DNA from: Chlorobiota bacterium | GTDB taxonomy: Bacteria; Bacteroidota; Ignavibacteria; OLB7 | Assembly: GCA_021296135.1 (NCBI GenBank) | Contig: JAGWAZ010000010.1 | Coordinates: forward strand, 1 to 43,360 | Direction: 5' to 3' | Length of the DNA: 43,360 nt | Shown here: positions 24,478-29,628 of the stretch, in pieces | Layout of the letters: each line of letters starts with the position of its first letter | How positions within the stretch are numbered: the stretch's first letter is position 1 | Translations under genes and position numbers: made by a program | Notes under the pieces: generated by a model | What the model was told of the DNA's origin: nothing | The model's input: the letters and a program-made list of their open reading frames with translations, nothing else | Databases searched by the model: none

Positions 24478-26040
24478 TCACCATACCCAAACCCCGCTCA
24501 GGAGAGGAAGCACCTGAAGACCGTTATCGGGGATCAGATCAAACGCCAGCCCCCCATCGACGGCGAAGCGATTGTTAAACCAACGAAGCGTTAGAGCAAC
24601 CGGCTGGAACTCGGAGTTCTCCAGCAGAAAGACTTCACCAGCAACTTTCCAGTTGTTCGCAAAACGATAATCTCCGCCGAGACCGACTAACACAGCCCGT
24701 TGCTCGAAGGGTGGTACTGCTGTATCGCTTGGGCTGTGGCGTCGCCACGAATATCCGGTAGTTACGGTTGCCGAGTAATCAAGCGCTCCCCAATTCGCTG
24801 TCAGGTAAGGAAGAATCAAGGCAATATTGGATTTATTCGTGTTCGAAAGATTCCCCTGTATTCCGCCGGCAACGCGGAATTCTTCACCTCTATAAAATTC
24901 GTACTTAGCGCCAAGAGTGGCAACAAGCGTCTCGCTGATAAACGATGGCACAAAGATTCCGCCGCCAATCAGCGTAAGTCGTTCAGTTGGACCGTACCCG
25001 GCAACAATTCCGGCAACGTCATAGCTTGCCAGGAAGCCTCGCTCTTTACCGACAGATCGAGCGGTCGGAGTCAGGATTGTTCTGAAAGTGGTCGGATCAT
25101 GCACAAACTCCGGGAGCGGTTCAAGCGCGATCGTGTCGAACGACGAAGGCTTCTCTGAAATCAATAGTCCGGCCGAGTCGGGAAAGAGTGGTTCTCCCGG
25201 AATCGGCTCTATCGGGAATGCATGAGGTGGCGGCGGTGGCGGTGGAACGGGCCCTCCAGGTAGCATCCTCGGCGGTTTTGGTCGTGGGGGAGGTGTGATG
25301 GGAGGAGGGTCGGGATCCGGATTCTTTGGCCGTGATGGCTCGATAACGTTGACGTATGCTGTGTCTGCTACAACGTACGTTGTGTACTTACCGACAGGTT
25401 GCCCACGACGGATATGAACGAAGATCGGAGCTTTAATGCGCCCCAATCGCTCGGGCCGGAAACAGACCGAGTAGCGATAGGTTCTTATTCCTCTGATTCG
25501 GAGCGGGGGCTTCTTGAAGGGATAGCGAATCGAGAACTGTCGAGAGGGACTTTCCACCTTGTCAACAATGAAGTCTCCACCTAAGGATTTCACAACAAAC
25601 GTATGGCATGGCTTGTCATCAAGCGTGACCGTGCCAAAGTCTTCGTGAGAGAGTGACCATACGTTCTCAAGGTCGAGGTCGTATGTCCTCTTTGATCCAT
25701 CGCAGTCAGTCACTCGAATCTCGACCTCAAAATTGCGGTCAATCCGCTCAACCCATAGAGAAAAGGTTGTCTGCTTGGCACAGTAACCAAAGACCGGAGC
25801 GGTCATGACACGGTAGTAGCTGGTCTTGTAGCTGAGGGTGATTGGTTTCCATCCATCTCGTGTTTTCATCTCGATTTTCGAGATGCCGTCAACATCATAA
25901 ACTGTCAACGGATTCATCCCGGAATAGAGAGAGGTAGGATAGAGACGATCCTGTCCGATAGTTGCCGTATGACTCAGACACAAAAGAGCAAGCGCAATGA
26001 AGGGAAGCAGACGCAACGGCAAAGCTAGTGAACCAAACAT
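24478..26040 (-). CDS. Hypothetical envelope protein with Pro-rich linker and C-terminal beta-barrel-like region
   Basis: ORF 24478..26091; likely start ATG 26040 (signal MFGSLALPLRLLPFIALALLCLSHTATIGQ); PPPRPKPPRMLPGGPVPPPPPPPHAFP; alternating C-terminus ending PLLSGVWVW. Confidence 0.6.
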   Translation of the reverse strand: MFGSLALPLRLLPFIALALLCLSHTATIGQDRLYPTSLYSGMNPLTVYDVDGISKIEMKTRDGWKPITLSYKTSYYRVMTAPVFGYCAKQTTFSLWVERIDRNFEVEIRVTDCDGSKRTYDLDLENVWSLSHEDFGTVTLDDKPCHTFVVKSLGGDFIVDKVESPSRQFSIRYPFKKPPLRIRGIRTYRYSVCFRPERLGRIKAPIFVHIRRGQPVGKYTTYVVADTAYVNVIEPSRPKNPDPDPPPITPPPRPKPPRMLPGGPVPPPPPPPHAFPIEPIPGEPLFPDSAGLLISEKPSSFDTIALEPLPEFVHDPTTFRTILTPTARSVGKERGFLASYDVAGIVAGYGPTERLTLIGGGIFVPSFISETLVATLGAKYEFYRGEEFRVAGGIQGNLSNTNKSNIALILPYLTANWGALDYSATVTTGYSWRRHSPSDTAVPPFEQRAVLVGLGGDYRFANNWKVAGEVFLLENSEFQPVALTLRWFNNRFAVDGGLAFDLIPDNGLQVLPLLSGVWVW

Positions 26041-26047
26041 TATTGTT

Positions 26048-26079
26048 GGTTGAAGGATACTCTGGTTGAAGGATACTCT
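26048..26079. repeat. 16-bp tandem duplication ahead of the likely start of the hypothetical envelope gene
   Basis: ggttgaaggatactct x2. Confidence 0.95.
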
Positions 26080-26220
26080 CACACTGATCATGGCCTTTCA
26101 CATCGACCAACAACAACCGTTACGCTATAGAATCAGGGGAGGGGTTGCAGTCATACCTTGCACTTGTGTTCGCCCGATGAAGCAGGGCGCTATACAACAT
26201 TCTCCTGAATTGTCCTGAGT

Positions 26221-27180
26221 TCATCCTTCCACTCTTTTCTCCCTCATCTCTGACGAGAATTTCCAACCAGCAGCAACGCTAAAGCTGTTCAGGCGAAATG
26301 TGTTAACGCCGAATAACTTGACCTGATATTGGGCACTGAGCGTTAGATGTTGGTTAAGCTGTACAAATCCTCCGGGCTGTAGAGCAATGTAATCCTCACG
26401 ATCGATTGTGGTAAAACGACCGGTTCCCCCATCCTGTCGCAGCTTTTCACTTTCGGTTCCATCTGCTCCCGCGTAAAAAGGCCGAAGTGGTTGCGAGGCA
26501 TCCTCTGTCGCCAAAACTCCACCGAACCCTACAAAGATCCCTGCCCCTTCAACACGTGAGATACCAGCCTGCCCATAATAGACAATCTCATCAACCGGTT
26601 CCTCTGTGCGCACGTTGTATCCTATTGATCCTTTCAGCCAGAACTCGTCCCCTGCATATCCAAAGTGGAGTATGTTCAGGAACTGGAGGTATCCGTCACT
26701 CAGAAATGTTGGATGATTAGGGTCATCATAGATACCATTATGAAAACCGGGTGGAATACGAACCATTGAGCTGACGGCCGTTCGGAAACGCCCGAAAGGC
26801 ATTCCGTAAGTCAACCCGACACCGAACCAGGCGGGGGCAAAAATCGATCGATCGGGAAACCGGGATTCACTTGTGAGGGTGTAATAACCGATAGGAAGCT
26901 CAACGTTGGCTTCCAGATTCTTTATGATCTTGTAATCAGCAGAGAGACCCAACGTAAAGGCGGTGAAGGTCGTTTTCACGCTGTCAAAGAGTCGGGTCTG
27001 CCCGTCAACGTTAAAGTAATCTCGTGTGCTTCCCCAATTGATCGAGAACCAGGCTTCCGCTGTTCCCTCAGACTGCAAAAAAGCATCTCCCTGTGCCGGG
27101 ATCTCTGCAGAGACTGCGAACAGAAGAATGACAACCACACATAGTCGGTGAAGATGCTTATGGTTTTGCATTGATTTCAT
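26221..27180 (-). CDS. Hypothetical outer-membrane beta-barrel-like protein
   Basis: Signal peptide MKSMQNHKHLHRLCVVVILLFAVSAEIPAQ, then alternating amphipathic segments (FGVGLTYGMPFGRFRTAVSSMVRIP, LSAQYQVKLFGVNTFRLNSFSVAAGWKF). Confidence 0.6.
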   Translation of the reverse strand: MKSMQNHKHLHRLCVVVILLFAVSAEIPAQGDAFLQSEGTAEAWFSINWGSTRDYFNVDGQTRLFDSVKTTFTAFTLGLSADYKIIKNLEANVELPIGYYTLTSESRFPDRSIFAPAWFGVGLTYGMPFGRFRTAVSSMVRIPPGFHNGIYDDPNHPTFLSDGYLQFLNILHFGYAGDEFWLKGSIGYNVRTEEPVDEIVYYGQAGISRVEGAGIFVGFGGVLATEDASQPLRPFYAGADGTESEKLRQDGGTGRFTTIDREDYIALQPGGFVQLNQHLTLSAQYQVKLFGVNTFRLNSFSVAAGWKFSSEMREKRVEG

Positions 27181-27325: not shown

Positions 27326-28906
27326 TCAAAATCCAAGCTCTACACCTGCGTTGACCCCATAGTTCGCATTGAAATCAACCTCTTGGGAGAACTCATGGAG
27401 CATTGATCCACCAACCCCCAAAGTCCAGGCAACGTTTTCATGTGTAGAGATCGCTGCATAAGCCCGGGCATTCAGAACGATGCCTCCGTCAGCTCCACCA
27501 ACTCCAACACGACCGTGAATGTTCAATCTCTTGTTCACCGATGTGACCTTATGATCATAGAACACGAGACCATAGACCATTGAGGCCTCGGACTCATAGG
27601 AATGGAAATAATACTGTGGACGGTTCGGTTGAGAGGCAGTTCTGCCATCCGTTTGTTCTTCTCCTAAACTTCCACCGGCCCGGGAGTTTACTCTGCTTCC
27701 CCCTTCAGATTCTATTGCCGAGGAGAGATCATCCGGACCAATGTTGCTCCGTGCAAACCTATGCAACGGCTTTTCTCCCTCTACCCCCCCTTCAAGACCA
27801 ACTTTATGATAGCCGAACATTGCGCTCCCCCCTTCAAGACCAATCCGATTTTTCTCGCCCAGAGCCAGAGCCAGGTATGCAGATCCTTGAACCGAGAAGG
27901 TTGACTTCTTGGTAGTGATGCCGGAGGCGAGCGTTCCACCGAACATAATGCGACGACGACTCGATTCCGAATTGCCAAGCATCGGAATTTGGCGGGAGTT
28001 TGATCGCAATACCACAACAGTACCATTATCACCCCCTTGTCCATAGCGAGCCTTCGGTTGAGTTTTGTCTAACAGCTTGGGACTTGAGAGAGCTGACGCA
28101 AGAAGCTTATCAGGATTTTCTCCAAGGGAACGCAATGATTGTCCGTTCAGAACAACTGAGCTTACCTCAGGAATAGTAAGACCAGACTCAGTATCGAGTG
28201 ACGGATGACGATCCACATCTTCTCTGAGGAAGGATTCGTTTGCAACGGACTCCGATCTGTTTGGTTCGATTTCAGGATCTGAGATCTCGGCAAAACCATT
28301 TGGATCAGCCTCTATTGAACTTCTATCGAGTATAGCTATAGACTGATCAGCCTGATTATACACTTGTTGTCTCGGCTCAGAGACGCGTTTTGTTCTCAGG
28401 CTTGATATACCTGAAGCCGTTGCACGAGTTTCCTGCGATGCCGAGGAAAGAAGCGGCGTTGACCCCTGACTATTTGATGCCTCTGCGAGAAGCGCTGTTG
28501 AGGTAGCTTGGGGATCTATATCGGGCAATTCCAGTCCGGCCAGGCGATCACTTCCAGAGGGAGCGATCAAGGTTGGTGCCAGCGCAATCAACACAAGGGT
28601 GACCATCGCAACAAGTGAAGCACCGGCAATACGCTCCGGGAAAAAGAGCGGACGTCGTTTTTCCTCTTCTTCCTCTGCCAACTCAGCAAACTGCTCCGAG
28701 AGAGTCTCCCGGACAACCATAGAGAGGGCCTCGGGAGGAGTCAATATCAACAAATCATCGTGGATAATCGAACGCAACTCGAGCGTCTGCAACAATTCAG
28801 TTCGCAGTCGAGGCTCGGTGTCGAAAAGGTCACGGAAGTGCTGAAGCTCTCCCTCGGAAATCGACCCGTCGAGATATTTTTCGAGATAGTTATCGACTTT
28901 TGTCAT
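27326..28906 (-). CDS. Transmembrane anti-sigma-like protein with C-terminal outer-membrane barrel-like domain
   Basis: Start overlaps the sigma stop (ATGA); N-term MTKVDNYLEKYLDGSISEGELQHFRDLFDTEP; TM at about residues 93-115 (IAGASLVAMVTLVLIALAPTLIA); beta-rich end (RLNIHGRVGVGGADGGIVLNARAYAAIS...NYGVNAGVELGF). Confidence 0.65.
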   Translation of the reverse strand: MTKVDNYLEKYLDGSISEGELQHFRDLFDTEPRLRTELLQTLELRSIIHDDLLILTPPEALSMVVRETLSEQFAELAEEEEEKRRPLFFPERIAGASLVAMVTLVLIALAPTLIAPSGSDRLAGLELPDIDPQATSTALLAEASNSQGSTPLLSSASQETRATASGISSLRTKRVSEPRQQVYNQADQSIAILDRSSIEADPNGFAEISDPEIEPNRSESVANESFLREDVDRHPSLDTESGLTIPEVSSVVLNGQSLRSLGENPDKLLASALSSPKLLDKTQPKARYGQGGDNGTVVVLRSNSRQIPMLGNSESSRRRIMFGGTLASGITTKKSTFSVQGSAYLALALGEKNRIGLEGGSAMFGYHKVGLEGGVEGEKPLHRFARSNIGPDDLSSAIESEGGSRVNSRAGGSLGEEQTDGRTASQPNRPQYYFHSYESEASMVYGLVFYDHKVTSVNKRLNIHGRVGVGGADGGIVLNARAYAAISTHENVAWTLGVGGSMLHEFSQEVDFNANYGVNAGVELGF

Positions 28907-29463
28907 TCATTCTGATTGTGAACCACTGGAGAGAGGATCGTTCGCAACATTTTTCTCGCTCGGTAGATCCGGATCTTTACCGCTGCAATCGAGGCTCCGG
29001 TTATCTCCGCAATCTCCTTGTATGCATAGCCATCATACTCATAGAGCACAATCGTTTCCCGATAGTCATTGGGCAACCGTTTTAACGCGGCTGCAACCTC
29101 TTCATGCAATGCCACATCTCTGATGCGAGCCGGAGAGATGTCGGCAACAGAAGCCTCAAACGGCACAGTCTGCTTTTTGTTTCGCCGCATGTTCAAACAA
29201 ACATTACGGACAATCGTAAAGAACCAGACCATAAAACTGCGTCCATCATAAGTATGGCGATGTTCATGTAGTCTCATAAAAGCCTCCTGGAAGGCATCAT
29301 GTGCCATTTCCTCATCGTAAAGGACCCTCATACAGTAGACATAGACCTTCTTTTCATATCGCCTGAAAATCTCATTGAAGGCCTGAACATCCCCCTTTTG
29401 GGCACTTAGGAAAAGCTCGTTATCGGAACGATCTTCCTGCCGTCTGGTCTGTTCTTCTTTCAT
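28903..29463 (-). CDS. ECF-type RNA polymerase sigma-70 factor
   Basis: ORF 28903..29493, likely start ATG 29463; region 2 AFNEIFRRYEKKVYVYCMRVLYDEEMAHDAFQEAFMRLHEHRHTYDGRSFMVWFFTIVRNVCLNMRR; region 4 LKRLPNDYRETIVLYEYDGYAYKEIAEITGASIAAVKIRIYRARKML. Confidence 0.95.
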   Translation of the reverse strand: MKEEQTRRQEDRSDNELFLSAQKGDVQAFNEIFRRYEKKVYVYCMRVLYDEEMAHDAFQEAFMRLHEHRHTYDGRSFMVWFFTIVRNVCLNMRRNKKQTVPFEASVADISPARIRDVALHEEVAAALKRLPNDYRETIVLYEYDGYAYKEIAEITGASIAAVKIRIYRARKMLRTILSPVVHNQNE

Positions 29464-29628
29464 AACTTGGGAACATACTATATAAACATACACAGGATTT
29501 CAGGAATGGTTACCGCGATTATGCGACTTTCCGACCCTGCTGACTTGATAGTATATACCTATATTAGATTGATGTGTCATAATCACAACTGAGCTATCCC
29601 CTGGATCATATTTGAGAGCACTATTTTC

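Follow-up and report, generated by a model that had tools for sequence, protein, structure and literature searches.

A predicted anti-sigma factor with an outer-membrane barrel tip as a candidate one-protein relay from the outer membrane to RNA polymerase

The window, a 43,360-nucleotide stretch of DNA from a Chlorobiota bacterium, encodes a 526-residue protein that probably acts as a one-protein signal relay from the outer membrane to RNA polymerase. Its gene layout, its domain layout, the conservation of its family and a conserved promoter are supported by computation. In cells carrying such a protein, one molecule may by itself link the cell surface to gene expression. Known anti-sigma factors of this kind, termed Dma, are a small number of Bacteroides proteins; the new family comprises at least 87 distinct proteins of another lineage, nearly all adjoining their sigma factor and most with a recognisable promoter. 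With this promoter, the regulon can be read from sequence, and what a barrel-tipped anti-sigma factor senses can be tested directly. The family also bears on the question of how a single protein stays in both membranes simultaneously.

Results

Gene cluster and family

Four genes of the window are considered here:
28903..29463, minus strand: ECF sigma factor, 186 aa from ATG 29463 (Pfam Sigma70_r2 8e-15, Sigma70_r4_2 3e-16)
27326..28906, minus strand: barrel-tipped anti-sigma factor gene, 526 aa (open reading frame, homologs, predicted structure)
26221..27180, minus strand: third gene of the cluster, predicted exported and barrel-like product of 319 aa, position kept in 4 family genomes
24478..26091, minus strand: fourth gene, 537-aa exported protein, position kept in 4 family genomes

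The ATG of the 526-aa reading frame falls within an ATGA overlap with the stop codon of the ECF sigma gene, and re-reading of the DNA returned the same positions that an earlier note on this stretch had given. The sigma gene most likely starts at ATG 29463, since an upstream GTG at 29493 lies inside a promoter-like site (see below). A Pfam search with the 319-aa product of the third gene returned no family above cut-off. In the 537-aa protein, a Pro-rich hinge lies between a beta-rich domain and a barrel-like C-terminus whose last residues are WVW; the match of this protein to the Autotransporter beta-domain is weak (Pfam E 0.06), and no family scored above cut-off. The cluster of a divergent lon, the sigma gene, the anti-sigma-barrel gene, the gene for an outer membrane protein (OMP)-like product and the exported gene of the 537-aa type is intact in the four nearest genomes.

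The ECF sigma factor is 66-69% identical to 4 orthologs of the same family. Identity of the anti-sigma protein to its four same-family orthologs amounts to 43-51% in the head and 30-47% in the barrel strands, and to 9-18% in linker and loop. Class-wide, 27 full-length homologs align with the same head and strands, and 87 distinct homologs possess head, transmembrane (TM) helix and barrel, although such family counts do not represent independent events, given that the loci are related to one another and that some of them served to build the profiles. As head and strands are conserved in the four orthologs, and the 87 homologs keep head and barrel, the reading frame is not a chance one. The pairing of sigma and anti-sigma-barrel genes proved to be conserved across the lineage: 76 of the 80 named loci fetched by the sigma factor alone, mainly Kapaibacterium, Ignavibacteria, Chlorobiota and Bacteroidetes metagenome-assembled genomes (MAGs) with loose labels, carry a head-plus-barrel reading frame. 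NCBI places Kapaibacterium in Bacteroidota and the Ignavibacteria-labelled MAGs in Ignavibacteriota. These loci were found by a scan with the sigma alignment; a protein scan of genome contigs with a single sequence gave no match. Most barrel-paired sigma factors cluster together in the sigma tree, with moderate support.

Two further candidate barrel-tipped anti-sigma factors are encoded in the window's genome, each after an ECF sigma gene: for one (L162:2149-3543, plus strand), hhalign gives a match to the barrel region (97%), and for the other (L015:5279-7078, minus strand) a match to the head only. In a subgroup of the family (L140, L142, L143, L149, L150 and others), the gene that comes after the anti-sigma-barrel gene encodes a small lipoprotein-like product containing CTSPLDTDAPR close to its N-terminus.

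Head and transmembrane helix

The N-terminal part of the protein comprises two features:
28670..28903, minus strand: cytoplasmic anti-sigma head, residues 2-79, with AlphaFold helices at 2-13, 18-30, 32-54 and 59-79
28565..28627, minus strand: single transmembrane helix, residues 94-114, with a hydropathy peak of 2.42 and an AlphaFold helix

The head is modelled with pLDDT values of mostly about 83-93, the last block being lower at 74 (AlphaFold, 62 homologs), and the predicted helices show the class I anti-sigma arrangement of a three-helix bundle plus a fourth helix. In a search of the PDB with the head profile, the sole matches at E<=1 were RseA (E 0.2) and RsiW (E 0.52), each weak, and both are class I anti-sigma domains. 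A comparison with the NCBIfam anti-sigma family gave E 0.002, and 10 of 27 homologs match it. The charged, cytoplasmic-type N-terminus had been read earlier as anti-sigma-like; the class I helix layout and the pairing with an ECF sigma factor agree with this reading. The TM helix, previously called at about 93-115, is placed by the model at 94-114; a KRR motif and a further R immediately N-terminal to it indicate an N-in orientation.

Linker

The TM helix is followed by one long feature:
27950..28564, minus strand: disordered periplasmic linker, residues 115-319, 205 aa, free of Cys, pLDDT mostly below 50

The linker had been described as a Ser/Pro/Gln-rich stretch of residues 116-318, approximately. 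Its boundaries and its richness in Ser hold, but enrichment in Pro and Gln does not (Ser 16.6%, Leu 10.7%, Ala 8.3%, Pro 6.8%, Gln 5.4%, Cys 0). Identity to the four family orthologs is 9-13%, and linker lengths in the 87 homologs range from 87 to 221 aa (median 149). The periplasm is 20-30 nm wide. By our own estimate, a relaxed chain of 205 residues has an end-to-end distance of ~13 nm and a contour length of ~74 nm, which upholds the earlier view that the linker is able to cross the periplasm.

Disordered linkers are generally prone to proteolysis, and one RseP-family protease, i.e. a site-2 protease, is encoded in the window's genome. Both observations would fit a constitutive split of the head from the barrel, resulting in two proteins from one gene. 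However, all 87 homologs have a linker of at least 87 aa, as fits periplasm spanning, and the fusion is retained throughout the lineage, so that a constitutive split appears unlikely.

C-terminal barrel

The C-terminal part of the protein comprises the following features:
27329..27949, minus strand: 8-stranded outer-membrane beta-barrel, residues 320-526, with C-terminal Phe (AlphaFold, Foldseek)
27611..27790, minus strand: long loop of variable sequence joining strands 3 and 4, residues 373-432, flanked by strands 353-372 and 433-456

Four helices in the head, a single TM helix and eight strands are predicted by AlphaFold already from five orthologs, at an overall pLDDT of 45; the model from 62 sequences has the same strands, with overall pLDDT raised to 66 and strand pLDDT mostly 94-97. 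By Foldseek, both models match outer-membrane barrels in the PDB, namely OmpA, NspA, OprF, PagL, OmpX and Ail, with OmpA, NspA, OprF and PagL at the top. The predicted topology is self-consistent, with periplasmic entry, eight strands, loop 373-432 on the outer side and the last Phe of the final GVELGF at the periplasmic face; eight strands, two periplasmic termini and a C-terminal aromatic residue are the marks of an OmpA-like OMP. The terminal residue is F, Y or L in 78 of the 87 homologs. The loop (60 residues) shares 12-18% identity with the orthologs; it is extracellular by predicted topology and constitutes a candidate sensing surface.

A Pfam search with the barrel domain of the window protein matched no barrel family, which might be taken to favour a soluble periplasmic beta domain at the end of an ordinary anti-sigma factor. 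Eight mostly amphipathic strands, their high pLDDT and the OMP barrels heading the Foldseek matches render this highly improbable. The outer-membrane barrel with terminal Phe claimed in the earlier note was thus recovered as a confident 8-stranded model, with no soluble domain. Two outcomes that would have spoken against that note, a soluble C-terminus and a head devoid of an anti-sigma-like fold, were looked for, and neither is seen in the models.

Promoter and candidate regulon

Upstream of the sigma gene lies the following element:
29485..29513, minus strand: promoter-like site GTAACCATT-N10-TGTGTATGTT, 21 nt upstream of the sigma ATG (29463)

The family promoter GTAACYATT-N10-TGTGTAWGTT is located just upstream of the sigma gene in 5 of 5 family genomes, within surrounding DNA that is unalignable. 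Within the window, this ECF-type GTAAC..TGTGTA site occurs once, against 0.03 matches expected; a search of the 2.86-Mb genome that tolerated up to 2 mismatches found no other. At the class loci, GTAAC precedes the sigma gene in 71 of 74 cases (vs 19 in reversed controls), and TAAC-N17-TGTC in 40 of 74 (vs 0).

Reversed-pattern controls with up to 1 mismatch gave 5-8 matches per genome; only exact promoter sites therefore carry weight, and even these are predictions. In three other genomes, exact GTAAC-N17-TGTC sites precede genes for TonB (two genomes), ExbD (the third) and BNR-repeat proteins (TonB and ExbD sites at loci L215, L219 and L217). Exact sites of the class promoter also precede an M28 peptidase gene with a type IX secretion system (T9SS) sorting tail and, in two of the three sampled genomes, the sigma gene itself. 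Predicted class promoters at TonB and ExbD genes are hinting at a Ton-system regulon. At class loci, the gene downstream of the anti-sigma gene often encodes a TonB-dependent receptor or a T9SS-sorted protein, and genes for surface or exported proteins are found as neighbours.

The barrel may also be a mere anchor or assembly gauge for BAM or outer-membrane insertion, binding no ligand. The C-terminal beta-signal kept in most homologs and the long, featureless linker would agree with such a role. On the other hand, the length and variability of loop 2 match what a surface-exposed sensor would show, and the promoters of TonB/ExbD and secreted-protein genes in relatives indirectly suggest regulation of nutrient uptake or export. 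We regard a barrel without ligand as possible, if rather doubtful.

Discussion

Proposed mechanism

In the preferred reading, a signal relay within one protein, the head would hold the product of the directly preceding ECF sigma gene at the inner membrane, where the TM helix would anchor the anti-sigma factor. The linker of ~205 residues would cross the periplasm, and the OmpA-like 8-stranded barrel would be inserted in the outer membrane with its 60-residue variable loop outside. The trigger would be a change at the outer membrane, i.e. a ligand on the loop, failed or altered barrel insertion, or tension. The signal would probably be relayed via site-1 cleavage in the linker and subsequent site-2 (RseP-type) cleavage, freeing the sigma factor. 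Freed sigma could then transcribe its own operon from GTAAC..TGTGTA, adding the two exported proteins. Barrel insertion in a protein that is also held by an inner-membrane helix would be mechanically unusual.

Head and barrel beyond the lineage

A search in Bacteroidia with the head profile retrieved ECF-linked anti-sigma factors carrying other C-termini. Since the head-profile matches in other Bacteroidota come after ECF sigma genes, the head marks ECF partners. Barrel-profile matches (E<1) are present in 0 of 41 distinct proteins with heads from outside the lineage, a set gathered with the same head profile and thus no unbiased census of anti-sigma factors. This argues for the barrel being a feature of this lineage's version; judged from sequence, the barrel tip is not a by-product of having the head. 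Among other Bacteroidota, four anti-sigma-like proteins (L186:1483-2508, plus strand; L189:1486-2490, plus strand; L177:736-1794, minus strand; L191:1480-2754, plus strand) appear by eye to contain the head in two or three tandem copies, followed by a single TM helix.

Comparison with known systems

Dma proteins are described as restricted to Bacteroidota, with adjacent sigma factors of the ECF21 group, and their loss as raising vesiculation (PMC13088901). Dma2 combines an anti-sigma domain, a TM helix, a long disordered tether and a C-terminal beta-barrel with ECF pairing (PMC13088901), a plan which agrees with the earlier note's mention of barrel-tipped Dma anti-sigma factors in Bacteroides. 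The window protein likewise possesses an anti-sigma head, one TM helix, a long disordered tether and a C-terminal beta-barrel, next to an ECF sigma gene. Based on these four Dma features, and likened by described plan rather than by sequence, its predicted mode of working is Dma-like. In contrast to Dma, it belongs to a Kapabacteria/Ignavibacteria lineage, its barrel is 8-stranded and OmpA-like with a 60-aa loop, and its gene lies behind a conserved GTAAC..TGTGTA promoter in a cluster with exported proteins. A literature search for this lineage found no description of such an anti-sigma factor, and a PF13568 search for Dma in Bacteroidia returned only short stand-alone OMPs among the matches listed.

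The family could still represent a diverged form of the Bacteroides Dma, i.e. one homologous family spread through Bacteroidota, which would be compatible with the relay mechanism. The four-part plan and ECF pairing shared with Dma2 (PMC13088901) and the head homology reaching other Bacteroidota speak for common descent, but none of the sampled outside heads carries a barrel of this type, and two carry a different one, PorP/SprF. Common descent is thus a serious possibility, falling just short of an even chance. More tentatively, we propose a lineage-wide relay class with several copies per genome, which would have originated separately from Bacteroides Dma when a common anti-sigma head acquired an OmpA-like barrel by fusion, and which would control Ton-driven uptake and surface protein export.

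The two PorP/SprF-tipped anti-sigma factors belong to another Bacteroidota family (L199:562-2301, minus strand; L200:1217-2929, plus strand; PF11751 E 3e-24 and 3e-20). They resemble the window protein in head, TM helix, linker, outer-membrane barrel and adjoining ECF sigma gene, but their barrel derives from a different family, PorP/SprF (PF11751) of type IX secretion. Their occurrence suggests that anti-sigma factors acquired barrel tips on more than one occasion. Dma3 of B. thetaiotaomicron is also a barrel-tipped anti-sigma factor, but has its sigma domain within the same protein, whereas the window locus has a separate sigma gene. RseA and RsiW (class I) are alike in head layout, inner-membrane helix, ECF partner and likely regulated proteolysis, but, unlike the window protein, possess no outer-membrane barrel. 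In the FecA-FecR-FecI system, an outer-membrane event likewise controls an ECF sigma factor; there, outer-membrane receptor and anti-sigma factor are separate proteins, whereas in the window both are part of one polypeptide.
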